From positions 496,001-560,000 of the forward strand of contig NZ_JAHTBK010000001.1 of assembly GCF_020177575.1 (NCBI RefSeq): 64,000 bases of DNA. Reading direction: 5' to 3'. This stretch comes from Hasllibacter sp. MH4015 (lineage in GTDB: Bacteria > Pseudomonadota > Alphaproteobacteria > Rhodobacterales > Rhodobacteraceae). How positions within the stretch are numbered: position 1 is the first letter of the stretch; each line of letters starts with the position of its first letter. The position numbers and the translations under genes are program-made. Below, one piece after another: positions 1-13,571 of this stretch. Below the pieces are notes generated by a model. It was not told where the DNA came from. It made no database searches and saw nothing but the letters and a program-made list of their open reading frames with translations.

Positions 1-1074
1 TTGCGAGCTGCGGCGCCGGTGGTGAGGGAGGATTTGCGTGACGCGGACGAGGCGACGCCCTTCATTCGTTACCGTATCCGCAATTCCAGCCAGGATAGCG
101 CTGTCACCAATGTTCGACTGAGCGATACGCTGCCGATCGGTGTGACGGTTACGCGACTGCCCGAAATCTGTGCGTTGGAAGCAGCGGCGCTGACCTGCAT
201 CATCGGCGATCTGGCCGGTGGCGACAGGCTGACGTTAGAGCTGCCGGTGACGCTAGCGGGCGAGCTGAGCACACTTGAGTATGCGATCGAGGACGACACC
301 CCGGTCTCGATCACCGGATCGAGTCAAAACGTGCTGACCAGCGGGGAGTTCACGCTGGAAAACTACGTTGCCGTTTTCGACGAGCGAGAATTCGGTGCGG
401 TGCTTTGGGCGACGATGTTTTACACGGTGGTGGGCACGATTGGCGCGCTCGTGATCGGACTGTTTGCGGCGCTGTTGCTCAACAAGAGCTTTCGCGGCAA
501 GGGCGTACTGCGCGGTCTCTACCTCTTTCCCTACGTGGCGCCGGTGATCGCGGTGGCATATTCGTGGGTGATCTTGTTCGATCCATTCTCAGGGTCGATC
601 AACGCGCTCTTGATCCAGATGGGCGTGACCGACACGGCGATCAATTTCTTCGGCGAACGCCCCTTGGCGCTCATCATGGTGACGGTGTTCGAAATCTGGC
701 GCTATTTCCCCCTGAGCTTCCTGTTCATCCTCGCGCGGATGCAGTCGATTGATACGGACATGTACGAGGCGGCGGATGTGGATGGGGCGACGCCGTTTCA
801 GAAGTTCCGCTATCTCAGCCTGCCGATGTTGATGGGGATCCTGTCGGTCCTGTTCCTGCTGCGCTTCATTTGGACCTTCAACAAGTTCGACGACATCTTC
901 TTGCTGACGGGCGGCAATGCGGGCACCCGGACCCTGACGGTCAATGTCTACGAGCAGGCCTTTGCGCTGTCCAATATCGGGGCCGGCGCGGCGGTGGCCG
1001 TGGTGATTCTGTGCTGCCTGCTGGCGTTTTCCTGGGCGTTCTTCCGGTTCATGAGCAAGGAGGAGGGGCTGTGA
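1..1074 (+). CDS. Sugar ABC transporter permease (MalF-type) with DUF11-like domain, 5' partial
   Basis: Inner-membrane permease of a carbohydrate (CUT1) importer. The reading frame is open at base 1, so the true start and probably a first membrane helix lie upstream. Residues about 20-95 read as a DUF11-type beta domain (YRIRNSS, TNVRLSDTLP, GDLAGGDRLTLE). Typical permease sequence begins with FTLENYVAVF near residue 115, followed by about six helices. The EAA loop (YEAADVDGATPFQKF) is near residues 254-270. Such a domain before the permease core is not usual in MalF or UgpA proteins and probably sits in the periplasm. The gene is followed by the partner permease, a hydrolase and an ATPase, consistent with one importer. 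Confidence 0.88.
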   Translation: MRAAAPVVREDLRDADEATPFIRYRIRNSSQDSAVTNVRLSDTLPIGVTVTRLPEICALEAAALTCIIGDLAGGDRLTLELPVTLAGELSTLEYAIEDDTPVSITGSSQNVLTSGEFTLENYVAVFDEREFGAVLWATMFYTVVGTIGALVIGLFAALLLNKSFRGKGVLRGLYLFPYVAPVIAVAYSWVILFDPFSGSINALLIQMGVTDTAINFFGERPLALIMVTVFEIWRYFPLSFLFILARMQSIDTDMYEAADVDGATPFQKFRYLSLPMLMGILSVLFLLRFIWTFNKFDDIFLLTGGNAGTRTLTVNVYEQAFALSNIGAGAAVAVVILCCLLAFSWAFFRFMSKEEGL

Positions 1075-1188
1075 GCGGTCCGGCGAAAGCGGCAATCGCT
1101 CCGGTAGAGCGGTCGAACGGAGAACGGGCGGAGTCCCGGATCACGTCGTTCCCCAGGTGCGGCCCGTTGGTGGACATCGCCGTCCGAA

Positions 1189-1235
1189 GCGGGGGCCAGC
1201 CCCCGCACCCCCGGGATATTTTCGGCAGATGGAAG
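1189..1235 (+). repeat. Hairpin plus GGATATTT/ATGGAAG element, copy 1
   Basis: A 7-bp stem (GCGGGGG, loop CCAG, CCCCCGC) is followed by CCCGGGATATTTTCGGCA and then GATGGAAGA. It lies between the two permease genes, just before the ribosome-binding site of the second. Three more copies occur at 36656, 45824 and 49631, all on the same strand. The ATG at 1229 is in frame with the permease start at 1253. Confidence 0.75.
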
Positions 1236-1252
1236 ACAGGGGAGGTGCGCGC

Positions 1253-2461
1253 ATGATCCGGCGGGGATATGTGACGGGCCCGATCTTGGGCGTGCTCTGG
1301 GCCTTCGTGGTGGCGACCACGGTCGCGGTGGTGTTGAGCTTTTCGACGGGGGAGGCGTTTCGCCCCGGCCTGATCGGCGGCGTCATCCTGGGGGCCGGCA
1401 TGGGCGCGGCGGCGTTCCACGTCCGCTCGGGCCTCCTCCTCTCGGGCGGGGGGGCGGTGCTGGCCCTTCTGCTCAGCTATACCGCGATCAGCCCGGTACA
1501 CGTCGGCCCGACGCTTGGGATCGGGGCGCATTTGGTGATGGCGGCTTTCTTCGGCCTTGCGATGGGCCTGTCGCTGTCGGTGATCCTGCGCGGCGCACCG
1601 GCAGGCGCCATGACGCGGCACGAATGGGAGGAGGCGGTGATCCGGTTCCTGACCGGCTTCGGCTTCGTCTTCTTCACGGCGGCGGTCTTCATCCCGTTCT
1701 ACGTCATGGTGATGACGTCGATGAAGACCCAGGGCGAACTGATCGCGAACCCGCTGGATTTTTCCATCGATTTGGGCCGGGGCTGGGACCTGTTCCGCAG
1801 CTACCGCGAATTGTTCAACGATTTCAACTTCGGCCGCTACATGTGGACGAGTTTCTACGTCTCGGTCATCACGGTCCTCGTGACGCTGTTGTTCAGCGTG
1901 CCCGGGGCCTACGCGGTGGCGCGGCTGCGCTTCAAGGGGGCGCGCGCGCTGAGCCGGTCGATCCTTCTGATCTACATGGTGCCGATGATCGTGCTGGCGC
2001 TGCCGATCTATATCGCCTTTTCCATGACGGGCCTGCGCAACACGATCATCGGCCTTGTGATGATCTACCCGGTCACGACGATCCCCGTGGCGCTTTACAT
2101 GTTGCAGGGCTATTTCCGGGGCTTGCCTGCAGAGGTCGAAGAAGCGGGCCTGATGGATGGGCTGAACCGCTTGCAGGTGATCTGGAAGATCACGCTGCCG
2201 CTGTCGCTGCCCGCGATGGTGTCGGTCAGCCTCTACGTCTTCATGATCGCGTGGAACGAGTTCCTGCTGGCCTTCATGCTGCTGGATGATCCGTCGATCT
2301 TCACGCTGACGCGGGGGATCGCCTCGCTCAACTCCTCGGAAATCCCGCGCCAGCACCTGATGGCGGGGGCGGTGATCGCGACGGTACCGGTGATGGTCCT
2401 GTTCCTGGGGCTGGAGAAGTTCATGACCAAGGGCCTGACGGCGGGAAGTGTGAAGGGATGA
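1253..2461 (+). CDS. Carbohydrate ABC transporter permease (MalG-type) with N-terminal membrane extension
   Basis: Second permease of the sugar importer, about 402 aa. The C-terminal 270 residues are a standard MalG/UgpE-like core with the EAA loop EEAGLMDGLNRLQVIWK near residues 293-310. The first 120 residues add about four hydrophobic segments not found in ordinary MalG proteins of about 280 aa. The start at 1253 was chosen because a GGGGAGG site precedes it; ATG 1229 is in frame and would add eight residues. The stop overlaps the start of the hydrolase gene by 4 bases (ATGA), so the two are translationally coupled. Confidence 0.9.
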   Translation: MIRRGYVTGPILGVLWAFVVATTVAVVLSFSTGEAFRPGLIGGVILGAGMGAAAFHVRSGLLLSGGGAVLALLLSYTAISPVHVGPTLGIGAHLVMAAFFGLAMGLSLSVILRGAPAGAMTRHEWEEAVIRFLTGFGFVFFTAAVFIPFYVMVMTSMKTQGELIANPLDFSIDLGRGWDLFRSYRELFNDFNFGRYMWTSFYVSVITVLVTLLFSVPGAYAVARLRFKGARALSRSILLIYMVPMIVLALPIYIAFSMTGLRNTIIGLVMIYPVTTIPVALYMLQGYFRGLPAEVEEAGLMDGLNRLQVIWKITLPLSLPAMVSVSLYVFMIAWNEFLLAFMLLDDPSIFTLTRGIASLNSSEIPRQHLMAGAVIATVPVMVLFLGLEKFMTKGLTAGSVKG

Positions 2462-3753
2462 AAGACATGGCCGACCTCGACACCGGACCGCTTGATGAAG
2501 AGGCCCGCCGTATCCTGCGCCTGAACGACAAGGGCGGGTACACGGTGCCGACCGCAGGGCTCTACCCCTACCAGTGGAATTGGGATAGCGCCTTTGCGGC
2601 CATCGGGTTCGCCACCTTCGACGTGGACCGCGCCTGGAGCGAGCTGGAGACGCTGTTTGCCGGGCAATGGGACAACGGGATGGTGCCCCATATCCTGTTT
2701 CATGTGGTTGACGAGGGGTATTTTCCGGGGCCGGAGGTGTGGGGCACGCAAGATGCGGTGGGGCGCGGGGAGCAGATCGTGCCGTCATCGGGGATCAGCC
2801 AGCCGCCCGTGGCCGCGTCACTGGCGTGGGAGGTGTACCGGACGGACCCGATCCAGGGCGAGGCACGGCTGCGCGCGCTGTTCCCTAGATTGCTGGCCTT
2901 TCACCGCTGGATCATGGGCGCGCGCGCGGAGAGCGGCGCGGTCTGCATCACCCATCCGTGGGAGGCGGGGCGGGACAATGCACCGGATTGGGACGAGGCG
3001 ATGGCGGGCATCGATCCGGTGGGCGTGGCACCCTACACAAGGCGCGACACCGGCCATGTGGACGCCAAGATGCGGCCCACCCAGGCCGATTACGACCGCT
3101 ATATCTGGCTGGTGCAGTTCGGGCGCGCGCGGGGGTGGGACGACGGACAGATCGCGGCGGAAAGCCCGTTTCGCGTGGCGGATCCGACGATGACCTTCAC
3201 CTGCCTGCGGGCCCTGCGCGATCTGGGCCGCGCGGCGGACGTGCTGGAGGAAGACCGTGCGGAGATCGACGGATGGATCGCAACGCTGGAGGACGGCGCG
3301 CGCATCCTGTGGAACCCCGACACGCAAAGCTTCGAGGGGCGAAATCTGCGCACCGGCAATTTCGCGGGGTCGGTCAGCAATGCGGGGTTCCTGTGCTGGT
3401 GGGCTGGCATCCGCTCCGATGAGGCGCGCGAGACGCTTGACGCTGTGCTGGACCGCGCGCGTTACGCGCTGCCGAGCTATGACCCGGCGGGGCCGCATTT
3501 CGACCATCTGCGCTATTGGCGGGGGCCGGTCTGGGCGATCATGAACTACATGGTGGCGCGTGGCATGGCGGAGGCCGGACTGGCGGCGCAGGCCGAACGT
3601 ATCCGGCGCGACACCGCGCGGCTGATCGCGGAGCGGGGCTTCGCGGAATACTTCTCCCCGCACGACGGCACGCCTGCGGGCGGGGGAACATTCACGTGGA
3701 CGGCGGCGGTCTGGCTGGCCTGGGCCAGCCCCTCGGCCGGGGAGGGACGCTGA
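2458..3753 (+). CDS. MGH1-like glycoside hydrolase (GH63-type, glucosyl/mannosylglycerate hydrolase-like)
   Basis: Probable cytoplasmic glycosidase of 431 aa with an (alpha/alpha)6 toroid fold; no signal peptide is seen. Family-typical motifs are [14 protein letters not shown] (about residues 40-53), [14 protein letters not shown] (about 70-83), [17 protein letters not shown] (likely acid/base Asp), [13 protein letters not shown] and [10 protein letters not shown] (likely base Glu). The closest characterised relatives I know are bacterial hydrolases of glucosylglycerate and mannosylglycerate, but trehalase-like substrates cannot be excluded. Its place between the permeases and the ATPase suggests it cleaves the imported glycoside. 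Exact substrate is unknown. Confidence 0.82.
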
Positions 3754-3754
3754 G

Positions 3755-4777
3755 ATGGGTGAGATCGAGCTGAGGGCGGTCGAGAAATGGTATGGCGATG
3801 TCCAGGTCATCAAGGGCATCGACTTGGTCGTGGAGGACGGCGAGTTCGTGATTTTCGTGGGGCCTTCGGGCTGCGGAAAATCCACGCTTCTGCGGATGAT
3901 CGCGGGGCTGGAGGAGACATCGCGGGGGCAGGTCATCATCGACGGACGCGACGCCACGGCTGAGCCGCCCTCCAAGCGCGGATTGGCGATGGTGTTCCAG
4001 AGCTACGCGCTCTACCCGCATATGTCGGTGGCGGAGAATATGGGATTTTCGCTCAAGACGGCCGGGGCATCGAAGGCGGAGCAGGACGAGAAGGTGGCGG
4101 AAGCGGCCCGCGCCCTGCGCCTCGAGGACTATCTTGGGCGTCGGCCAAAGGACCTGTCGGGCGGGCAGCGACAGCGGGTGGCCATCGGGCGATCCATCGT
4201 GCGCGACCCGACGGCGTTTTTGTTCGACGAGCCGCTCTCAAACCTCGACGCCGCGTTGCGGGTGGAAATGCGCTACGAGATCGCGAAACTGCACCAACAG
4301 CTGAAATCGTCGATGGTCTACGTGACCCATGACCAGGTGGAGGCGATGACGCTGGCCGACCGGATCGTGGTTCTGTCCGCGGGATTGATCGAGCAGGTCG
4401 GCACGCCGAAGGCGCTTTACGATACGCCCGACAACCTGTTCGTGGCGCAATTCATCGGCTCGCCGAAGATGAACGTGATCGACCTGCCCTGTGCGGATCT
4501 GCGTCTGTCGGGCGAGCCGGCGGGCGCGGCCCATCTGGGCATCCGGCCCGAGGCCATTTCAATCGGCGATGCGGGGGCAGGCGACGTGGATGGTGTGGTC
4601 GATGTGGCGGAATATCTGGGGGCGGATATCTTCCTGATCGTCGATTGCGGGGCGGCGGGCAAGCTGACCGTGCGGATCGACGGGGAAAGCACGCTGCGCC
4701 CGGGGGATAGGGTCGGGCTGCACTTCACCCCGGACAAACGCCACTTTTTCGACGCAAGCGGCCACGCCCTGCGTTAG
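3755..4777 (+). CDS. Sugar ABC transporter ATP-binding protein (MalK/UgpC family)
   Basis: ATPase of the CUT1 importer, 340 aa. Walker A is GPSGCGKST at residues 36-44. The signature [14 protein letters not shown] and Walker [12 protein letters not shown] follow, and the H-loop is in [15 protein letters not shown]. The C-terminal 110 residues form the TOBE/OB regulatory domain typical of MalK and UgpC. The start follows the hydrolase stop by one base. With the two permeases it makes a transporter lacking only a binding protein, which is presumably upstream of the window. Confidence 0.93.
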
Positions 4778-4799
4778 CGCGCGCCGCATCGCGGCATTT

Positions 4800-4813
4800 T
4801 GCAATCGTATGCA
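4800..4813 (+). promoter_or_regulatory. Candidate LacI-family operator
   Basis: TGCAATCGTATGCA is a near-palindrome with the central CG and outer TG/CA that mark operators of GalR/LacI-family regulators. It lies 66 bases before the HisD/HpsN-like start, in the only sizeable gap after the transporter genes. The likely ligand is the LacI-family protein encoded at 8078. Inference from pattern only. Confidence 0.5.
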
Positions 4814-4878
4814 GATTTTCCTTGAAGCCGGTTTCGTGCCGCGTATCCTTGCGCCGACGCAGGTGGAGGGATGATTAC

Positions 4879-6204
4879 ATGGCAGAGTATCTGAAACGCG
4901 GCAAACCCGCCGACGAACGCGCGGAAGACGACGCCAAGGTGCGCGGCATCGTCGAAGGTATCCTTGGCGATATCGAGGCGCGTGGCGATGCAGCGGTCAA
5001 GGAGTTGTCCGCGAAATTCGATGGCTACGAGCCGCAGGCCTTCCGCCTGAGCGCGTCCGAGATCGAGGCGGCGATGCAGAAGGTCACGACGCGCGAGATG
5101 GACGATATCCGCTTCGCCCAGACCCAGATCCGCCGATTTGCCGAAGCGCAGCGCGCCTCCATGACCGATATCGAGGTGGAAACGATGCCCGGCGTGATCC
5201 TGGGTCACAAGAATATCCCGGTGAATTCCGTGGGCTGCTATGTTCCGGGTGGCAAGTTCCCGATGGTCGCCTCCGCCCATATGTCGGTGCTGACGGCGAA
5301 GGTGGCGGGCGTGAAGCGCGTCGTCGCCTCCGCCCCGCCGGTGAAGGGCGCGCCGCATCCCGCGATCGTGGCGGCGATGCATGAGGGCGGCGCGGACGAG
5401 ATCCTCGTTCTTGGCGGGGTGCAGGCGGTGGGCGCGATGGCGATCGGCACCGAAAGCATCAAGCCGGTCGATATGCTGGTCGGTCCCGGCAATGCCTTTG
5501 TCGCGGAGGCCAAGCGGCAATTGTTCGGGCGCGTGGGGATCGACCTTTTCGCAGGGCCGACGGAGACCTGCGTAATCGCCGATGAAACGGTGGATGCGGA
5601 AATGTGTGCCACCGACCTGCTGGGGCAGGCGGAACACGGCTATAACTCGCCCGCCGTTCTCATCACCAATTCCCGCAAATTGGCCGAGGCGACGATGGCG
5701 GAGATTGACCGCATCCTCGAGATCCTGCCCACGGCAGAGACCGCGCGGGTGTCCTGGGAGGAATACGGCGAGATCATCCTTTGCGAGTCCTACGAGGAGA
5801 TGCTGGAGGTCAGCGAAGACATCGCGTCGGAGCATATCCAGGTGATGACGGACCGGGACGATTGGTTCCTTGAGAACATGACCAATTACGGCGCGCTGTT
5901 CCTGGGGCCGCGCACCAACGTGGCCAATGGCGACAAGGTGATCGGCACGAACCACACGCTGCCCACGAAAAAGGCCGGGCGCTATACCGGCGGGCTGTGG
6001 GTCGGCAAGTTCATCAAGACCCATTCCTATCAGCGGGTCGTGACCGATGAGGCGGCGACGCTGGTGGGCGAATACGGCTCTCGCCTGTGCATGTTGGAGG
6101 GGTTTGTGGGTCACGCGGAGCAGTGCAATGTCCGCGTCCGGCGGTATGGCGGGATCAATGTGCCCTACGGTGAGGGCGCGCCCTATAGGGACGCGGCGGA
6201 GTAG
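4879..6204 (+). CDS. HisD/HpsN-like NAD-dependent alcohol dehydrogenase
   Basis: Zinc- and NAD-dependent four-electron dehydrogenase of the histidinol dehydrogenase superfamily, 441 aa. Predicted zinc ligands by comparison with HisD are Q250, H253, D352 and H412; the catalytic pair is E318-H319. The sequence resembles the HpsN branch (sulfopropanediol 3-dehydrogenase; [40 protein letters not shown]) more than biosynthetic HisD, and no his genes are nearby. It probably oxidises a primary alcohol to an acid. ATG 4879 was chosen over 4822 for its GGAGGG site and because the 19 extra residues are arginine-rich and unlike the family. Sulfonate specificity is not proven. Confidence 0.82.
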
Positions 6205-6265
6205 GGTCGGAGGGGGCTTTGCCCCGCCTGTGCGGGACGCCCCGCGACGCAATTGGAAAGCAGCT

Positions 6266-7213
6266 ATGAGCGAAGAGCGTCAAGCCAAGGATCTGGTCGC
6301 GCCGTTCCGGGCCAACGGGCGCCTGGACGGGCTGGCGTCCGCCGCCTGCGCGGTGCATCTCGCCCATCCATTCGAGACCCTGGATGTCGCGGGCTATCAC
6401 GGTGTGTTGGACGATCTGGGAGAGGCGTTTCCGGATCTTGAGCGGCGCGTGACGATCGAGATGGCCGGGCGCGATGACCACGGGCAGCTTTGGGTCGGGC
6501 AATGCGGGTATTATTGCGGGCTGTTCGCCGCCCCGTTCCTGGATATTTCGCCGACGCGCCGGATGGCGGTGATGCGGTTCCACGATTTTCTTCGCATCGA
6601 AGAGGGCGCGGTGGTGGAGATGCAGGCTTTGTGGGACCTGCCGGAAGTGATGATGCAAGCCGGTGTCTGGCCATTGTCACCGTCCTTGGGGCGGGAGTTT
6701 CACGTGCCGGGGCCTGCCACCCAGGACGGGTTGCGGATCGAAGGGGATGGGTCGGCGGCGTTGCGGGTGGTTGGCGATATGCTGGGAGGCCTCGGCAACG
6801 ACCCGAACGGGACGCCGCGCGATGTGATGGCGCGCTTCTGGCACGAGGGCTGTTCTTGGTACGGCCCGTCGGGGATCGGGACGGCGCGCGGCATTGACGG
6901 GTTCCGGATGCATCACCAGGCGCCGTTCCTGGGCGCGATGCCGGACCGGCGCGCCCATGTGGCGGCGGGGCATTTCTTTGGCGAGGGCGATTACGTGGGC
7001 TTCACCGCATGGCCCGGCATGGCCTGTACGCTGAGCGGTGGCACCTGGCTGGGTCTGCCCGGCGCGGGCCAGAAGATTGAGATGCGGAGCCTTGATTTCT
7101 GGCGCGTGGCCGAAGGGCGCATCGCGGAGAATTGGGTGCTGGTGGACCTGCTGCACGTCTACGCGCAACTGGGTGTCGACGTGTTGGCGCGGATGCAGGA
7201 GGTCGCGCGTTGA
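6266..7213 (+). CDS. Double SnoaL/NTF2-like domain protein A
   Basis: 315-aa protein with two SnoaL/NTF2-like alpha+beta cone domains, roughly residues 20-135 and 165-305. Hallmark stretches are FHDFLRIEEGAVVEMQALWDL in the first and SLDFWRVAEGRIAENWVLVD in the second. The family includes ester cyclases, dehydratases and isomerases acting on small carbonyl compounds, and also non-enzymatic binding proteins. A second double-domain protein is encoded at 9097, so the pathway appears to need both. The start at 6266 begins the conserved region. The upstream GC-rich hairpin (6212-6227) may be a remnant of the short repeat seen elsewhere. The reaction is unknown. Confidence 0.7.
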   Translation: MSEERQAKDLVAPFRANGRLDGLASAACAVHLAHPFETLDVAGYHGVLDDLGEAFPDLERRVTIEMAGRDDHGQLWVGQCGYYCGLFAAPFLDISPTRRMAVMRFHDFLRIEEGAVVEMQALWDLPEVMMQAGVWPLSPSLGREFHVPGPATQDGLRIEGDGSAALRVVGDMLGGLGNDPNGTPRDVMARFWHEGCSWYGPSGIGTARGIDGFRMHHQAPFLGAMPDRRAHVAAGHFFGEGDYVGFTAWPGMACTLSGGTWLGLPGAGQKIEMRSLDFWRVAEGRIAENWVLVDLLHVYAQLGVDVLARMQEVAR

Positions 7214-7313
7214 TGACCGGGCGTTACACATTTTCGTTGTGCTCACAGGTCTATCCACAGATTTCGCGCGGATACTTTTCATATTCGCACATCCTCAATC
7301 GAGAGGCCCTGAC

Positions 7314-8069
7314 ATGACCTTGCCCCGAACGCCGACCTTCTCGCTTAACGGCAAGCGCGCTTTCGTGCCCGGGGGATCGCGCGGGATCGGGCTTGGGTGC
7401 GCCATGGCGCTGGCAGAAGCAGGCGCCCATGTCACGGTCGCGGCCCGCTCCGCCGATCAGGTCGAAGAGGCGGCGGAACAGATGCGCGGCACGGGATATG
7501 CCGCCGACGGCATCGCGCTCGACGTCACGGATTTGCCCGCAATGGAGGCGGCGATCGACGCGATCGGGCCGCTTGATATCCTGTGCAACTCTGCGGGTCT
7601 CGCGCGGCATTCCCCGGCGCTCGACACTACGCCCGAGGATTACGATGCGGTCTTCGCGATCAACGTGCGCGCGGCCTATTTCATGGCCCAATACTCGGCA
7701 CGGGGAATGGCGCGGGGCGGGTCCATCATCCAGATTTCCAGCCAGATGGGTCATGTGGGTGGCATCGACCGGGCCGTCTATTGCGCCACGAAACACGCGG
7801 TGGAGGGGATGACGAAATCCATGGCGATCGAATGGGGCCCGAAGAGGATCCGCGTCAACACGATCTGCCCGACCTTCGTACGCACACCCCTCACCGCGGC
7901 CACCTTTGCCAATCCCGACAAGCGGGCGTGGATCGAAAGCAAGATCAAGCTGCCCCGCGTGGCGGAGGTGGAGGATCTGATGGGCGCGGTCCTTTTCCTG
8001 GCCTCCGACGCCAGTGCGATGGTGACGGGCACGTCGATCCTGGTCGACGGCGGCTGGACAGCGGGGTAG
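7314..8069 (+). CDS. SDR-family NAD(P)-dependent oxidoreductase
   Basis: Classical short-chain dehydrogenase, 251 aa. The nucleotide-binding glycine motif is GGSRGIG near residues 18-24, with proline where TGG is usual (VPGGSRGIG). The catalytic Tyr156-Lys160 is in YCATK. The C-terminal IRVNTICPTFVRTPLT and TSILVDGGWTAG are typical. It probably oxidises a secondary alcohol of the pathway intermediate, complementing the HisD/HpsN-like enzyme. A 100-base gap precedes it and may hold an internal promoter. The LacI-family gene follows after 8 bases. Confidence 0.88.
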   Translation: MTLPRTPTFSLNGKRAFVPGGSRGIGLGCAMALAEAGAHVTVAARSADQVEEAAEQMRGTGYAADGIALDVTDLPAMEAAIDAIGPLDILCNSAGLARHSPALDTTPEDYDAVFAINVRAAYFMAQYSARGMARGGSIIQISSQMGHVGGIDRAVYCATKHAVEGMTKSMAIEWGPKRIRVNTICPTFVRTPLTAATFANPDKRAWIESKIKLPRVAEVEDLMGAVLFLASDASAMVTGTSILVDGGWTAG

Positions 8070-8077
8070 GGAACGAT

Positions 8078-9100
8078 ATGCCCGACCGCAAGATCACATC
8101 CATCGACGTGGCGCGCGCCGCCGGGGTCAGTCAATCGGCGGTCAGCCGGGTCTTCACGCCGGGTGCCAGTGTGTCCCAGAAGATGGCGGACCGGGTGCGG
8201 AAGGCAGCCGACGACCTTGGCTATCGCCCCAATGTTCTGGCGCGGTCGCTGATTACAGGACGCAGCCGGATCATCGGGCTGGTCGTGGCCTATCTCGACA
8301 ATCCGTTCTATCCCGACGCGCTCGAAAAGCTGAGCGCCGCCTTGCAGGCGCGGGGCTATCACATCCTCGTCTTTCTGGCGGGCAACAGTGACGAGGACGT
8401 TGAAAGCGTCATCGACGATCTGCTGGATTACCAGGTGGACGGGATCATCACCGCCTCGATCAACCTGTCGGGCGAGCTGACGGACAGGTGTCGAGCGGCG
8501 AACATTCCGGTGATGTTGTTCAACCGGGGGATCACGGGATCGGGGCTGTCTGCCGTGACCTCGGCCAACCGGGTGGGCGGCGCGAAAGTGGCGGAGTTCC
8601 TGATGGCGGGCGACCACGCGCGCATCGCCCATATTTCAGGCTGGATGGGCGCATCGACCGGGCGCGACCGGCGAAACGGCTTTGTCGATGCCCTGCACGT
8701 GGCCGGCCGCACGCTCCACGCCGAAGCCGATGCCCGCTTCCGCCGGGAAAAGGCCGCCGACGCCGCGCGGACGATGATGCTGTCCCCCGATCCGCCCGAT
8801 GCGATCTTTGTCGGCAACGACCATATGGCCTTGGGCGTGATCGACATGCTGCGTTACGAGATGGGCCTGGATGTGCCCGGAGATGTCAGCGTCGTGGGCT
8901 ACGATGATGTGCCGATGGCGGCATGGAAATCCTATTCCCTGACCACCCTGCGCCAGCCGGTCAATCGCATGGTCGAGGCGACCGTCGACACGCTTCTCAA
9001 CGAAATCGAGCAGGGCCGACCGCCCGGCACCATCACGGAGATCGAAGGCCACCTGGTCATCCGATCCTCCGCCAAGACACCCGAAGGACAGGTCCCATGA
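8078..9100 (+). CDS. LacI-family transcriptional regulator
   Basis: 340-aa regulator. Helix-turn-helix residues 6-26 (ITSIDVARAAGVSQSAVSRVF) are followed by the hinge helix and a periplasmic-binding-protein-like ligand domain (IIGLVVAYLDNPFYPDALE, IFVGNDHMALGVIDMLR, VVGYDDVPMA). It most likely represses the surrounding cluster and is released by a sugar or glycoside. The candidate operator is at 4800-4813. The stop overlaps the next start by 4 bases, so regulator and the second double-domain protein are co-translated. Confidence 0.92.
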   Translation: MPDRKITSIDVARAAGVSQSAVSRVFTPGASVSQKMADRVRKAADDLGYRPNVLARSLITGRSRIIGLVVAYLDNPFYPDALEKLSAALQARGYHILVFLAGNSDEDVESVIDDLLDYQVDGIITASINLSGELTDRCRAANIPVMLFNRGITGSGLSAVTSANRVGGAKVAEFLMAGDHARIAHISGWMGASTGRDRRNGFVDALHVAGRTLHAEADARFRREKAADAARTMMLSPDPPDAIFVGNDHMALGVIDMLRYEMGLDVPGDVSVVGYDDVPMAAWKSYSLTTLRQPVNRMVEATVDTLLNEIEQGRPPGTITEIEGHLVIRSSAKTPEGQVP

Positions 9101-10080
9101 GAGGGTTTTCCAACAAGTTCCGCGACTTCCCCGACTATATCATCGGCATCACGAAAGAAATCTGGGAAGACCGGCGCATCGCGACGCTGCACGAGTATTA
9201 CGCGCCCGATATCGTGGTGCGCTCTCCGGCGTCCGTTGTTGTCGGGAACGAGACAGTGATCGGTGCGACCATGGCGACGTTGGCGGAATTCCCCGACCGG
9301 GTGCTTTTGGGGGAGGACGTGATCTGGTCCGGCACGCCGGAGGAGGGGATGCTGTCGAGCCATCGCATCATCTCTCAGGCGACCCATGCGGGCGACGGGG
9401 TTTATGGCGCGGCGACGGGCAAGGCGCTGGAATACCGCATCCTCGCCGATTGCCACGCCAAGGATAACACGATCGACGATGAATGGCTGATCCGCGACCA
9501 GGGTGCGATCGTGCGGCAGATGGGCTGGAGCCCGCGTGACTACGCCGCCGACTTGATCGAGCGGGAGGGGGGGCCGAAAGCATGCGTGAAGCCGCTGACC
9601 CCCAAGACGGACAAGCCCGGACCCTACAAGGGACACGGCAATGACAACCAATGGGGCGTGATGCTTGCCGACACGCTCAACCGCATCATGGGCGCGGATA
9701 TGGCGGCGATCCCGGAGGTCTATGACCGCGCCTGCCACCTGGAATATCCGGGCCACGTCACCGCCCACGGGCCGGCAGCGGCGGACAAGTTCTGGATGGG
9801 CCTGCGCGCCGCGTTCCCCAATGCGACATTCGAGATCGCCCACCAGATCGGGCGGGACGACGCGAACATGGCGCCGCGTGCCGCCGTGAGGTGGAGCCTT
9901 TGGGGCAAGCACGAGGGCTGGGGCGCGTTCGGCAAACCGACCGGCGCGGAGGTCTATGTACTTGGGATCACACATGCCGAATTCGGCCAGCATGGCGGGG
10001 CGTCGCCGCAATTGCGCCGGGAATACACGCTGTTCGACGAGACGGCGGTATGGAAACAGATCCTTTTGTCGGGGGGCTGA
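9097..10080 (+). CDS. Double SnoaL/NTF2-like domain protein B
   Basis: 327-aa protein with two SnoaL/NTF2-like domains, about residues 12-150 and 190-320 (IWEDRRIATLHEYYAPDIVVRSPA; MGADMAAIPEVYDRACHLEYPG). It has the same architecture as the protein at 6266 but little obvious identity, so they are a distant pair rather than a recent duplication. Overlaps of 4 bases with the LacI gene and 1 base with the PPOX gene place it firmly in the operon. A role in isomerising or dehydrating the pathway intermediate is possible but unproven. Confidence 0.7.
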   Translation: MRGFSNKFRDFPDYIIGITKEIWEDRRIATLHEYYAPDIVVRSPASVVVGNETVIGATMATLAEFPDRVLLGEDVIWSGTPEEGMLSSHRIISQATHAGDGVYGAATGKALEYRILADCHAKDNTIDDEWLIRDQGAIVRQMGWSPRDYAADLIEREGGPKACVKPLTPKTDKPGPYKGHGNDNQWGVMLADTLNRIMGADMAAIPEVYDRACHLEYPGHVTAHGPAAADKFWMGLRAAFPNATFEIAHQIGRDDANMAPRAAVRWSLWGKHEGWGAFGKPTGAEVYVLGITHAEFGQHGGASPQLRREYTLFDETAVWKQILLSGG

Positions 10081-10706
10081 TGGACAGCTACGCCGACCAT
10101 ATGTTCACGCAAGACGTGCGGGCCGAGCAGGACAGGGTCGGCATGGGCGACCGCTACGCGAAGACCTACGCCAATCGCCTGCGCGGCCCGCTTGACGAAG
10201 ATGCAAGGGCATTCATCGAGACGCGGGACAGCTTCTACATGGCGTCGGTCGGGGCAACGGGCTGGCCCTACGTGCAGCATCGCGGCGGCCCGGCGGGGTT
10301 CCTGAAAGTGCTCGGGCCGGAACGGATCGGGTTCGGGGATTACCTCGGCAACAAGCAGTTCATTTCGCGCGGCAATACGCGCGGGGATGACCGCGTGTCG
10401 CTGATCTTGATGGATTACCCGCGCAAGGCCCGGCTGAAGCTGATCGGCCATGCGACGTTCACGGATGCCGATGACGACGGGGAACTGGCGGCGCGCCTTG
10501 CCACGGAGGGCGCAGTTCCGGCGGAGCGGCTGGTGACGATCGACGTGGTGGCGATGGATTGGAATTGTCCGAAATACATCACGCCCCGCCTGACGGAGGC
10601 GGAAATCAACACCGCGCTCGCACCGCGAATGCAGAAACTGACTGACCACATCACGGCCCTTGAGGCGCGGCTGACGGCGCTTGACCCGGATTGGCGTGAG
10701 GCATGA
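10080..10706 (+). CDS. Pyridoxamine 5'-phosphate oxidase (PPOX)-fold flavoprotein
   Basis: 208-aa protein of the FMN-binding split-barrel (PPOX) group. The core FIETRDSFYMASVGATGWPY, followed by QHRGGPAGFLKVLG and the GNTRGDDRVSLILMD stretch, matches the common PPOX-like proteins of proteobacteria. These bind FMN or F420 and reduce or oxidise small molecules; PdxH activity is not implied. The ATG overlaps the previous stop (TGATG); an in-frame ATG at 10050 would add ten residues inside the upstream gene. It is the last clearly enzymatic gene of this tightly overlapped group. Confidence 0.78.
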   Translation: MDSYADHMFTQDVRAEQDRVGMGDRYAKTYANRLRGPLDEDARAFIETRDSFYMASVGATGWPYVQHRGGPAGFLKVLGPERIGFGDYLGNKQFISRGNTRGDDRVSLILMDYPRKARLKLIGHATFTDADDDGELAARLATEGAVPAERLVTIDVVAMDWNCPKYITPRLTEAEINTALAPRMQKLTDHITALEARLTALDPDWREA

Positions 10707-11203
10707 GGGCGTCGGGCGCAATACTCGCGCTGGTCCTTGCGGCTGCACCGGCCCACGCGGATCCGATCGACGCGGTGATGGAGACGCTTTGGCAGACCCA
10801 TGGGGGTGAGCTTGCCGGGCGAAGCTACAGCCCAATGACGACGTCACGGCCCGGCCTATGGCATTGCGATGGATGCCCGAGCTCGGAGCGGGTGCATATC
10901 GACACCTACGATTACGCCTACAATTACGACACCACCGACCGGGCGCAGGTGTATCGAATGATTTCAGGGGCTTGCGGGATGACGGGTTGCGAGACGCATA
11001 TGATCACGCTGGCGGATTTGCCCGCCCTGCGCCAATCTGGCATGGCGCGGCGCGGGGGTGGGCATGACGCGCGGATCTCCCTGATCCTCGACGACCGCTT
11101 GATCATATGGGAGGTTGAGGGCCACGCCTCTGCGACAATGGTGGACACTGTGATGAACGAGTTGATTGCCGAGACCCTGCCCCTGTTCCTGGCGGCGCGA
11201 TGA
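10703..11203 (+). CDS. Secreted protein of unknown function with CDGC motif (paralog 1)
   Basis: 166-aa protein with a signal peptide of about 19 residues (cleavage near AHA-DP). The mature part has a CDGC pair, then CGMTGC followed by ETHMITLADLP, and a C-terminal LILDDRLIIWEVEG strand. The pattern recurs in the next gene, so the two are distant paralogs. The start overlaps the PPOX stop by 4 bases and the stop overlaps the next start by 4. Probably periplasmic, perhaps disulfide-bonded. I recognise no family. Confidence 0.65.
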   Translation: MRASGAILALVLAAAPAHADPIDAVMETLWQTHGGELAGRSYSPMTTSRPGLWHCDGCPSSERVHIDTYDYAYNYDTTDRAQVYRMISGACGMTGCETHMITLADLPALRQSGMARRGGGHDARISLILDDRLIIWEVEGHASATMVDTVMNELIAETLPLFLAAR

Positions 11204-11700
11204 GACTCCTTGCCGCGATCTTGGCCATTTTTGCCGCCGCCCCTGCGGCGGGGGAGGGGTTTGTCGTCACCGATCTGACAGCTTTGTCGGTTGCGCCCAT
11301 TGCCCTTGATGGCGGGACCTTCGAGGTTCAGCCGGTCGCCCGCAATCGGATGATCGTGGCGTGTACCGATTGCACCGAGTTGATGGTCATCGACGTGGTT
11401 CTGGGCCGACAGGATGACGGAACCGAAGACAGGTTGCGGTCGGGCGAGACCTCCATCGACGATATCCGCGCGCTGTGCCAAGCCAACACGCCGTCCTGCG
11501 CCCTAGAGGGGATCACGCTTGGCCGTGCCATCGGTTGGGTCACGGAATACGAAGCCGGGGTGACGGGCAGCACGACGGTGCTCTTTCTGGACGGCGATCT
11601 GCTTACGATCCGATCCATTGCCGGGGACATCCCGACCGCCCGCGAAAATGGCGATGCCGTGACTGCCGCCCTTGCCCCCATGATCATAGGCGCGGAGTGA
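11200..11700 (+). CDS. Secreted protein of unknown function with CTDC motif (paralog 2)
   Basis: 166-aa protein with a signal peptide ending near AAG-EG. It mirrors the preceding gene in length and layout: CTDC near residue 52, a second cysteine pair (CQANTPSC) followed by ALEGITLGR, then VLFLDGDLLTIRSIAGD near the C terminus. Four-base overlap with the preceding gene shows co-translation. Function unknown; likely periplasmic. Tandem duplication of a disulfide-bonded secreted protein is the simplest reading. Confidence 0.65.
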   Translation: MRLLAAILAIFAAAPAAGEGFVVTDLTALSVAPIALDGGTFEVQPVARNRMIVACTDCTELMVIDVVLGRQDDGTEDRLRSGETSIDDIRALCQANTPSCALEGITLGRAIGWVTEYEAGVTGSTTVLFLDGDLLTIRSIAGDIPTARENGDAVTAALAPMIIGAE

Positions 11701-11752
11701 CCCGCGCGCCTGCCCAACCTGCCATGCCCAAATACAATCCCGGAGAGAGACC

Positions 11753-12883
11753 TTGACCATTCGCACCACCCATGTCGGCAGCCTTCCCCGGACCCAGGAG
11801 GTCGTGGATTTCATCTTTGCCCGGGAAAAGGAGCAGCCCTTCGATCAGGCCGAATTCGACGCCGCCATGACAAGGGCGGTCGATGAGACCGTGGCCAAGC
11901 AGGTCGCGGCCGGCGTGGAGATCGTGAGCGACGGGGAGACCTCCAAAATCTCCTACGCGACCTATGTGAAGGACCGCTATACCGGCTTTTCCGGCGATAG
12001 CCCTCGAAATGCGCCCGCGGACCTGAAGCAGTTCCCGTCCTTTCTGAAGCGGCTGGCCGATGATGGCGGCACGCCCACCTATGCGCGCCCGATGTGCACG
12101 GGCGAGGTGCGGTCCAAAGGACAGGGCGAATTGCAGAAGGATATCGACAACCTCAAGGCGGCCATGGCCAAGCACGGCGCGGAAGAAGGGTTCATGAACG
12201 CGGCCTCGCCCGGCGTTATCTCCCTGTTTTTACAGAACGATTTCTACCCTTCGCGGGAGGCGTATTTGGCGGCCCTTGCCGACGCGATGGCGGAGGAATA
12301 CCGCACCATCGTCGATGCGGGCCTGCTGCTGCAACTGGATTGTCCCGACCTTGCCCTGTCACGCCACATGCTGTTTGCGGATCTGAGCGACGCTGAGTTC
12401 GTCAAGATTGCGGCGTCGCATGTGGAGGCGCTGAACCATGCGCTGTCGGGCATCGACCCGGCGCGGGTGCGGGTCCATATCTGCTGGGGCAATTACGAGG
12501 GGCCGCATATCTGCGACGTGCCGATGGATACGGTCTTTTCCACCTTCATGTCGGTGAATGCGAACCAGTTGCTGTTCGAGACGTCGAACCCCCGCCACGC
12601 CCATGAATGGACCACCTTCCGCGACCGCGCGGCGGAGATTCCGGACGACAAGATCCTTGTACCCGGCGTGGTCGATACAACGACGAATTTCGTGGAACAT
12701 CCGGAGCTGGTGGCCGAGCGGATCGCGAAATTCGCGGGCATCGTCGGGTCGGACCGGGTGATTGCAGGCTCCGATTGCGGGTTCGGCACCTTCGCGGGCT
12801 TCGGCGCGGTCGATCCGGAAATTGCCTATGCCAAGCTGGGTGCGTTGGTCGAAGGGGCGCGGCTGGCCAATGCACGGGGATGA
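11753..12883 (+). CDS. MetE C-terminal-like cobalamin-independent methyltransferase family protein
   Basis: 376-aa protein of the vitamin-B12-independent methionine synthase C-terminal superfamily, which also includes coenzyme M transferases. Full MetE is about 750 aa, so this is the single-barrel form. The start motif TTHVGSLPR is typical. Zinc ligands are likely His/Cys in HICWGN and Cys in GSDCGFGTF. Translation begins at TTG 11753 behind CGGAGAG. It probably transfers a methyl or alkyl group to or from a thiol. Its link to the upstream pathway is positional. The stop lies inside the next gene, with a 14-base overlap. Confidence 0.8.
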   Translation: MTIRTTHVGSLPRTQEVVDFIFAREKEQPFDQAEFDAAMTRAVDETVAKQVAAGVEIVSDGETSKISYATYVKDRYTGFSGDSPRNAPADLKQFPSFLKRLADDGGTPTYARPMCTGEVRSKGQGELQKDIDNLKAAMAKHGAEEGFMNAASPGVISLFLQNDFYPSREAYLAALADAMAEEYRTIVDAGLLLQLDCPDLALSRHMLFADLSDAEFVKIAASHVEALNHALSGIDPARVRVHICWGNYEGPHICDVPMDTVFSTFMSVNANQLLFETSNPRHAHEWTTFRDRAAEIPDDKILVPGVVDTTTNFVEHPELVAERIAKFAGIVGSDRVIAGSDCGFGTFAGFGAVDPEIAYAKLGALVEGARLANARG

Positions 12884-13571
12884 GCCGCTTGTCCTGATCC
12901 CCGGCCTGATGTGTGACGGGCGGCTCTTCGGGCCACAGATCACGGCATTCGGGCGGGGTAGGGCGGTGCATCTGGCCAATATCACGCGCGCCGACACGGT
13001 GCCCGATCTGGCCGCGCAGGTACTGGCCGAGGCGCCCGCGCGATTTGCCTTGGCGGGCCTGTCCATGGGCGGCATCGTGGCGATGGAGATCATGGCCCAA
13101 GCGCCCGACCGCGTGACACGGCTGGCGCTGTTCGACACAAATCCCAAGGCGGAGGCCCCCGAGATTGCCGCCGCGCGGGAGCCGCAGATCGCTGCCGTGC
13201 GGGCCGGGCGCTTGGTGGAGGTGATGCGCGACGAGATGAAGCCGAATTACCTTGCCCCCGGCCCGCGTCGGGCGGAGGTGCTGGACCTCGTCCTCGACAT
13301 GGCGAAGCGGCTGGGGCCGGAGGTTTTCATCCGCCAATCCCGTGCGCTACAGACACGGCCCGATCAGCAGGATGCCTTGCGCAAGGTCACGGTGCCGAGC
13401 CTGATCCTGACGGGAGAGGATGATGCACTCTGCCCGCTGCATCGACACGAATTGATGGCCGATCTGATCCCCGCATCACGCCTGATCGTCGTGCCGAAGG
13501 CGGGGCATCTGCCGACGTTGGAGCAGCCGGACGCGGTGATTGATGCGATGGCGGATTGGTTGGCCAGATAA
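12870..13571 (+). CDS. Alpha/beta hydrolase
   Basis: 233-aa single-domain alpha/beta-hydrolase. The nucleophile elbow is GLSMGG near residue 63-68, the acid is in LILTGEDDALCPL and the histidine in VPKAGHLPTLEQP. ATG 12870 is the in-frame start overlapping the MetE-like gene. The substrate could be an ester or lactone; no lid domain is evident. It is the last gene of the plus-strand run. An 88-base convergent gap with a small GTGCA/TGCAC inverted repeat (about 13599-13610) follows. Confidence 0.82.
   Translation: MHGDEPLVLIPGLMCDGRLFGPQITAFGRGRAVHLANITRADTVPDLAAQVLAEAPARFALAGLSMGGIVAMEIMAQAPDRVTRLALFDTNPKAEAPEIAAAREPQIAAVRAGRLVEVMRDEMKPNYLAPGPRRAEVLDLVLDMAKRLGPEVFIRQSRALQTRPDQQDALRKVTVPSLILTGEDDALCPLHRHELMADLIPASRLIVVPKAGHLPTLEQPDAVIDAMADWLAR

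Follow-up and report, generated by a model that had tools for sequence, protein, structure and literature searches.

Two probably independent catabolic units abut in Hasllibacter sp. MH4015: a predicted glycosylglycerate importer-hydrolase and the core of a predicted LacI2 regulon

Introduction

The genes considered here lie at the start of a 64,000-nucleotide stretch of the Hasllibacter sp. MH4015 genome (G000:C1:496001-560000 of 3.71 Mb; hereafter the window), and several of them resemble parts of described systems. Glucosylglycerate and mannosylglycerate hydrolases (MhGgH and Thermus TTHA0978; MGH1-like, GH63-related) share the MGH1-like domain and 18 of 19 active-site residues with a glycoside hydrolase (GH) of this locus, which differs from them in falling below the NCBIfam cut-off and in sitting in an ATP-binding cassette (ABC) importer operon. 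HpsN and HpsO, of the sulfopropanediol (DHPS) pathway, are resembled by a histidinol dehydrogenase (HisD)-like protein, which keeps the Zn ligands, the catalytic Glu and His and Lys353 of HpsN, and by a short-chain dehydrogenase (SDR) that adjoins it in many loci; however, the HisD-like protein forms a separate clade, lacks His126 and has other partners and another importer. The SnoaL-like polyketide cyclases, PhzA/B and limonene epoxide hydrolase (LEH), all of NTF2 fold, match the predicted model of a protein termed Sno1, but Sno1 has two fused domains, several paralogues per cluster and a catabolic context. The Mes-like and core-MetE proteins of marine bacteria, as described in the accessible parts of PMC12366255 and PMC12478193, consist of the MetE catalytic domain alone and have four conserved residues, as does the MetE-like protein of this locus, which differs in travelling with the SnoaL cluster (36 of 56 loci with full flanks).

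An initial annotation had joined the genes at 1-10706 into a single glycoside-to-acid route. Our analysis points, with a probability of about 0.8, to two independent systems that abut: unit A, a glycosylglycerate importer-hydrolase system, and unit B, the core of a predicted regulon of the regulator LacI2, with another substrate. The gene content, the two operators, the separate conservation of the units, the absence of unit A from this place in a same-genus genome and the kept catalytic residues were observed; we infer every substrate and every reaction of both units. A false join of two neighbouring operons is thereby corrected, and a sizeable catabolic cluster without a named substrate is exposed.

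Gene Organization

Genes were called from open reading frames (ORFs) and family scans and were divided into unit A (first half) and unit B (second half). Coordinates are window positions unless prefixed L or G.

1-1074 (start upstream of the window at L005:11836), +, unit A, ABC permease 1 (Pfam BPD_transp_1)
1253-2461, +, unit A, ABC permease 2 (ORF call and family scan)
2458-3753, +, unit A, MGH1-like glycoside hydrolase, predicted glucosyl-/mannosylglycerate hydrolase (Pfam, PDB, active-site residues)
3755-4777, +, unit A, ABC ATPase of UgpC/MalK type, final gene of the unit (family scan)
4799-4814, no strand, unit B, LacI2-type operator TTGCAATCGTATGCAG (motif search; the DNA match to the same-genus genome restarts here)
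4823-4836, no strand, degenerate unit-A-like operator with two mismatches, probably chance (background frequency genome-wide)
4879-6204, +, unit B, HisD/HpsN-like dehydrogenase of a separate subfamily, with Met129 at the sulfonate-His position (family scan, alignment, tree)
6266-7213, +, unit B, Sno1, two tandem SnoaL/NTF2 domains (family scan and predicted structure)
7314-8069, +, unit B, SDR (family scan, PDB search)
8078-9100, +, unit B, LacI-family regulator LacI2 (family scan)
9097-10080, +, unit B, Sno2, two SnoaL/NTF2 domains (family scan)
10080-10706 (alternative start 10050), +, PPOX-type flavoprotein, occasional unit B member (family scan)
11753-12883, +, unit B extended, MetE-like protein of the cobalamin-independent methionine synthase II family (H242, C244, E276 and C342 kept)
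12870-13571, +, unit B extended, alpha/beta hydrolase (recurs with unit B in relatives)

Every gene named in the initial annotation was recovered at about its place by ORFs and family scans, the family assignments were supported, and all the genes lie on the + strand, as it had said. Its description of them as mostly overlapping did not hold: the nine junctions over 1-10706 comprise three overlaps (4, 4 and 1 bp), two gaps of 1 and 8 bp and four gaps of 61-178 bp. The sugar importer is present but incomplete in the window, with a LacI regulator (LacI1), a solute-binding protein (SBP) and the 5′ part of permease 1 lying upstream (L005); complete unit A is LacI1-SBP-permease-permease-hydrolase-ATPase. 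The unit B set extends past 10706, the MetE-like and alpha/beta hydrolase genes recurring with the second half in relatives.

Between the PPOX and MetE-like genes, 10703-11203 and 11200-11700 encode two small proteins that have no Pfam match and, judged by eye, are probably secreted. Permease 1 (window 1-400) gave a sub-threshold DUF11-like score of 20 bits, the cut-off being 24.6.

Separate Conservation of the Two Units

The family survey covered 295 genomes (cut-offs of E ≤ 1e-60 for the hydrolase and E ≤ 1e-160 for the HisD-like protein), and genes within 20 kb of each other were counted as linked. The hydrolase was found in 92 genomes, the HisD-like gene in 142 and Sno1-type genes, paralogues included, in 117; the Sno1 list used for linkage was limited at about 46% identity (98 genomes). 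The hydrolase and the HisD-like gene occurred together in 67 genomes and were linked in three of them (G000, G235 and G116), and the HisD-like gene and Sno1 occurred together in 93 genomes and were linked in 80. On the authors' assumption of a 1% chance per genome of such spacing (40 kb of 4 Mb), linkage of the hydrolase and the HisD-like gene gave p = 0.14 when our own genome was excluded (2/66) and p = 0.03 when it was included (3/67). Thirteen of the 14 hydrolase regions fetched (L088-L101) contained unit A without a HisD-like or SnoaL gene nearby, the exception being L088; L092 ends at a contig edge, and L097 has only a distant SDR. The hydrolase was absent from all 80 other Sno1 loci.

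In the same-genus genome G471, unit A is absent from this place, and a hydrolase relative with 53% identity lies on a different contig. The DNA of strain MH4015 matched the G471 region (L140) up to L005:9180, near the end (9193) of the gene preceding unit A, and the match restarted at window 4799, the first base of the unit B operator, and ran to 10082. The place of unit A is occupied in L140 by 506 bp matching nothing. Window positions 10083-11782 (PPOX and the two small genes) also had no match in L140, which indicated that PPOX too is not fixed in the genus. The initial annotation had named conserved co-occurrence across Rhodobacteraceae as its check, and separation of the genes in related genomes as what would speak against it. 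The refuting outcome was the one found: linkage in 3 of 67 genomes, no hydrolase in the 80 other Sno1 loci and a same-genus genome without unit A at this place.

Operators and the Predicted LacI2 Regulon

A perfect palindrome, CCGAAACCGGTTTCGG, was found at LacI1 of unit A. The 14-bp operator core CGAAACCGGTTTCG stands without a mismatch at LacI1 here and in 11 of the 14 hydrolase regions; the exceptions are L092 (contig end) and L098 and L101 (no LacI1 hit). In unit B, TTGCAATCGTATGCAG precedes the HisD-like gene. The motif TTGCAWWCGWWTGCAA occurred with at most one mismatch in 12 of 20 Sno1 regions (L068-L087) and with at most two in 16 of them, and no site within two mismatches was found in the 13 hydrolase regions that lack unit B. 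Our own genome contained it at 10 places with at most two mismatches, against one place for the reversed control. Five of these sites had at most one mismatch, and four of the five lie beside unit-B-type genes:

window 4799, before the HisD-like gene
G000:C1:2715470, with an ABC SBP/permease set on one side and a third SnoaL gene on the other (L107)
G000:C1:1785233, with a fifth SnoaL on one side and an ABC ATPase plus a fourth SnoaL, of a single domain, on the other (L121)
G000:C1:2074137, ahead of an ABC operon whose final genes are bicupin and RraA (L122)
G000:C1:257248, no unit-B-type genes adjoining

That suggested unit B has importers and a regulon of its own. The predicted LacI2 regulon would span at least four loci and include five SnoaL proteins, the HisD-like protein, the SDR, the bicupin, RraA and two importers.

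On the other side of the LacI2-type operator from the ABC-bicupin-RraA operon, and divergent from it, lie three genes (L122:6931-9192), two of which were named by eye as FAH-like and gentisate 1,2-dioxygenase-like.

The Hydrolase of Unit A

The unit A hydrolase matched the Pfam MGH1-like GH family from end to end (2e-111), and its best PDB match was TTHA0978 (2z07/4wva), with mycobacterial hydrolases also among the matches. The active-site residues of MhGgH were taken from the accessible text of PMC6608630 and placed through the 6g3n alignment, with an inferred numbering offset of 2. Eighteen of the 19 were conserved, including the glycerate contacts Tyr36, Trp40, Tyr88, Arg216 and Tyr375 (MhGgH numbering), and the catalytic Asp/Glu pair is D173 and E397. 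The sole departure was the sugar contact Gln434, which is Phe here, as it is in 6g3n. This supports the hydrolase of glucosyl- or mannosylglycerate kind to which the initial annotation had pointed. It scored below the NCBIfam glucosylglycerate-hydrolase equivalog cut-off (NF047898; 334.8 against 550 bits), and it is therefore termed predicted, as a protein that would work like the filed members rather than being one of them. According to the same accessible text, MhGgH does not hydrolyse glucosylglycerol (PMC6608630); together with the kept glycerate contacts, this suggested that the product is likely D-glycerate, an acid from the outset. Unit A would thus import a glycosylglycerate (glucosylglycerate, or mannosylglycerate, that is digeneaside) and hydrolyse it to a hexose and D-glycerate.

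Enzymes of Unit B

Among solved structures, HpsN was the nearest to the HisD-like protein, in line with the HpsN/HisD-like label given in the initial annotation. The protein shared 46.7% identity with the HpsN of its own genome, 46.2% with CpHpsN and 38.8% with the HisD of its own genome; the biosynthetic HisD is a different protein, at L006:3066-4379 (assigned from sequence by the authors). The Zn ligands, the catalytic residues and the sulfonate-contacting His126 of CpHpsN are those given in the accessible text of PMC11382572. The ligands Gln248, His251, Asp352 and His411 and the catalytic Glu318 and His319 were conserved in 93 of 93 HisD-like relatives, and Lys353 of HpsN was also retained in the HisD-like protein. 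At position 126, where His contacts the sulfonate and the apo-Zn, 80 of these relatives had Met, 13 had Leu and none had His. His was found there in 40 of 41 labelled HpsN proteins, and the remaining one grouped with the HisD-like clade. The HpsN clade had a support of 1.0 in the tree, and the HisD-like clade 0.65, with one member outside. Judged by these residues, the enzyme should oxidise to an acid an alcohol next to the Zn-binding hydroxyl, and hardly DHPS. When the hpsO/hpsP set was sought beside the HisD-like gene, no medium-chain dehydrogenase/reductase (MDR)-type gene was found in unit B. The SDR matched HpsO (8wwf) at 4.2e-40 but scored higher to L-xylulose reductase.

The predicted structure of Sno1 (predicted local distance difference test 83.7) showed two tandem NTF2 domains; IdmH, AclR and SnoaL2 were the closest matches of the model, and PhzA/B and LEH came lower in the ranking. 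In the MetE-like protein, H242, C244, E276 and C342, which we take to be Zn ligands, were kept in 46 of 46 relatives. The bicupin kept His79, His81 and Glu85 in 90 of 90 and has Arg123 at a site where cupins usually carry a further His; a PDB search with it gave no match. Searches with the SBPs matched general sugar binders.

Distribution and Partner Genes of Unit B

A contig scan with the Sno1 alignment confirmed at least 579 relatives. The best 80 were kept, and 56 of their loci were of at least 20 kb (full flanks). These 80 loci spanned Rhodobacterales, Marinomonas, Colwellia, Glaciecola, Vibrio, Rhodoferax and other Comamonadaceae, Acidimicrobiia, Chloroflexi, SAR324 and others. Partner genes in the 56 full-flank loci (tblastn, E ≤ 1e-12, 40% coverage) were Sno2 (48), LacI2 (44), SDR (41), HisD-like (40), cupin (39), importer (36) and MetE-like (36); rarer were the alpha/beta hydrolase (30), RraA (18) and PPOX (3, also 3 of all 80), and the unit A hydrolase was absent. 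Several SnoaL paralogues per cluster were usual, four being the commonest count. An Amidohydro_2 protein was found in 20 of the 80 loci, against none of 54 control regions, and some clusters, mostly gammaproteobacterial, carried an HpcH aldolase, a sodium symporter and a TonB-receptor-like protein.

Unit B was nearly whole, with varying gene order, on annotated plasmids of Ruegeria conchae (L138), Octadecabacter arcticus (L139), Marinovum algicola (L136) and Paracoccus alcaliphilus (L137). The set comprised an ABC importer, SnoaL genes, HisD-like, Sno1, SDR, LacI, Sno2, cupin, MetE-like, alpha/beta hydrolase and RraA, except that no SDR was annotated in M. algicola and P. alcaliphilus had no MetE-like gene. 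Sets outside Proteobacteria were partial: three Chloroflexi loci (L170, L173 and L179) showed SnoaL genes only, and a plasmid of the haloarchaeon Halobellus limi (L130) carried ABC importer genes, an aldehyde dehydrogenase, five SnoaL genes and a MetE-like gene. In the phylum sample, 18 of 398 genomes matched at E ≤ 1e-80; 14 of these were our own genome or belonged to its genus or family, and four lay outside the family. The spread of unit B is wide yet sporadic outside the family.

The HisD-like gene was also seen beside pntAB transhydrogenase genes, with acs in two cases and without annotated SnoaL genes, on Rhizobium plasmids (L108, L132 and L134). On roseobacter plasmids (L110, L133 and L135), it was seen with an SDR, a TAXI-type TRAP importer and an HpcH-type aldolase, to which L133 adds RraA.

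Discussion

The gene content of unit B suggests a substrate that is methylated, bears an amino acid and has a primary alcohol next to a carbinol. It would be taken up by the carbohydrate-type ABC importer and hydrolysed or isomerised by the SnoaL/NTF2 proteins, and the MetE-like enzyme would remove its methyl group. The HisD-like enzyme would then convert CH2OH to COOH with 2 NAD+, opening of the skeleton would fall to the bicupin and the alpha/beta hydrolase, and central metabolites would arise through a pyruvate aldolase, which is RraA or, in other taxa, HpcH.

The boldest candidate substrate, suggested by the gene content and by genes of serine, threonine and glycine catabolism beside the cluster in a few lineages, is the mycosporine-like amino acids, which serve algae, corals and cyanobacteria as UV sunscreens. 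Their core has a C2 methoxy group, a tertiary C5 carbinol bearing CH2OH and a 1,3-dicarbonyl-like ring, and would thus suit a methyltransferase, a HisD-type oxidase, a dioxygenase-like cupin and an RraA/LigK-type aldolase. The amino acids of shinorine and porphyra-334 are glycine plus serine or threonine, PhzA/B act on amino-cyclohexenones, and we know of no described gene family for the catabolism of these compounds. In this specific form of the unit B proposal, which we hold to be possible but doubtful, the SnoaL proteins would release Ser/Thr and Gly, and the MetE-like enzyme would demethylate the C2 methoxy group. The HisD-like enzyme would convert the C7 hydroxymethyl to a carboxylate, and the bicupin and the hydrolase would open the ring to a 4-carboxy-4-hydroxy-2-oxoadipate-like acid, which RraA would cleave to pyruvate and oxaloacetate.

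Several neighbours are consistent with this route. L-serine ammonia-lyase directly adjoins Sno1 in L073 (G171, a genome of the family) and in the two Litoreibacter loci L143 and L144; in L150 (Cellvibrionales) and L176 (Pseudomonadales) its direct neighbour is a different SnoaL gene of the same locus. The lyase also occurs in a small cluster of Vibrio europaeus (L310) with a sodium symporter, a major facilitator superfamily (MFS) transporter, SnoaL, a porin and LacI. Threonine dehydrogenase and glycine C-acetyltransferase (Tdh-Kbl) are found in L150 and, beside the cupin, in L087; L176 also carries GcvT, together with the remaining cluster genes and a TonB-receptor-like gene, and GcvH and the beginning of GcvP were recognised there by eye. 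A sarcosine-oxidase-type protein (N-methyltryptophan oxidase in NCBIfam) occurs in the three Chloroflexi loci, and a sarcosine oxidase set in Vibrio pelagius. The kept residues of the MetE-like protein, the RraA/HpcH and amidohydrolase partners and the match of the Sno1 model to PhzA/B point the same way, and bacteria release Ser/Thr from shinorine and porphyra-334, according to the accessible text of PMC3083659.

However, the idea arose from inspecting neighbour genes, and the family-level control was negative: Gly/Ser/Thr genes were found near Sno1 in 2 of 69 loci against 1 of 54 control loci (p = 0.59), and the control region L094 itself carries GcvT and GcvH. Serine ammonia-lyase was present in 4 of the 80 scan loci (just 3 of 15 isolated Sno1 loci), 1 of 69 family loci and none of the 54 controls, and was absent from the four phylum-sample loci L222-L225. 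It is likewise missing from the stretch of Vibrio sp. THAF191d (L311) that carries SnoaL, MFS and sodium symporter genes. HisD-like orthologues also occur without annotated SnoaL genes in rhizobia (with transhydrogenase genes) and in roseobacters with TRAP importers. We therefore put forward only tentatively that unit B may form the core of a cluster for the catabolism of mycosporine-like amino acids, which would be the first one proposed and would be present, whole or partial, in Roseobacteraceae, sea-ice and coral bacteria, sponge symbionts and a haloarchaeon. If this is true, the fate of a major marine UV screen gains genes countable in metagenomes; if it is false, the substrate question stays tractable through the operator, the importer and the residue that cleanly marks the subfamily (Met/Leu for His126).

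The unit B pathway appears undescribed, in the sense that no description was found in open-access full texts. No paper there paired SnoaL with histidinol dehydrogenase and a short-chain dehydrogenase, or ester cyclase with histidinol dehydrogenase, or dealt with a SnoaL gene cluster with a transporter in Ruegeria. Among the matches listed (titles and abstract starts), no cluster description was found for SnoaL-like proteins with cobalamin-independent methionine synthase in marine bacteria, nor, in the open-access mycosporine literature, any catabolic genes or cluster description. The main text of a LacI regulon paper (PMC4052901) contains none of the words 'histidinol', 'SnoaL', 'mannosylglycerate' and 'glucosylglycerate'. 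On mannosylglycerate ABC systems of roseobacters, the literature listed comprised a single review. The statement of the initial annotation that no published pathway known to it combines these parts is supported by these searches for the second half, and the single combined pathway that it implied is not supported.

That single route, which would run from uptake and cleavage of a glycoside to oxidation of the liberated C3 alcohol by the HisD-like enzyme and the SDR, with an acid as the product, is very unlikely in our estimate. Several observations nevertheless favour it and weigh against two independent systems. Unit A directly precedes the HisD-like gene both here and in G235 (L088), where the order HisD-like-SDR-LacI2 is the same; G235 splits unit B, with these three genes beside unit A and Sno1, Sno2, a LacI2, the cupin and the importer elsewhere (L102). 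In G116 (L125), the HisD-like gene and a cupin precede unit A, with modABC-like genes (named by eye) between; unit A starts ~4 kb after the HisD-like gene, and the hydrolase is 10 kb off. All the genes of the locus share one strand. The hydrolase and the HisD-like gene co-occurred in 67 genomes against 44 expected (odds ratio 4.6, uncorrected for kinship); the odds ratio was 4.35 for HisD-like and HpsN and 1.7 (p = 0.04) for the hydrolase and HpsN, and lifestyle or kinship can explain part, though perhaps not all, of the excess. The degenerate unit-A-like site before the HisD-like gene (4823-4836, two mismatches) suggests that read-through or co-control may occur here. As proof of coupling, this site was rejected: it had 39 hits against 37 for the reversed control, and the same-genus sequence lacks its right half.

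Against the single route stand the linkage in only 3 of 67 genomes, the absence of unit A from this place in the same-genus genome, the lack of the hydrolase in the 80 other Sno1 loci, the separate operators of the two halves and the unit-B-type importers adjoining unit B operators elsewhere in this genome. The glycerate contacts are also retained in the hydrolase, so the aglycone would already be an acid. Two abutting systems are therefore preferred.

Least probable of all, and rejected here, is a DHPS-type pathway with the HisD-like protein as HpsN and the SDR as HpsO: the best PDB match and the SDR match to HpsO speak for it, but a separate HpsN, with hpsO- and hpsP-like genes after it, is present in this genome, His126 is absent in all 93 relatives, HpsN forms a well-supported clade of its own, and the SDR is nearer by score to L-xylulose reductase. 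The genome's own HpsN lies at L007:3976-7002 (G000:C1 about 2032975-2036002), the hpsO- and hpsP-like genes after it having been recognised by eye. This set, far from the window, is likely the true DHPS pathway of the genome.

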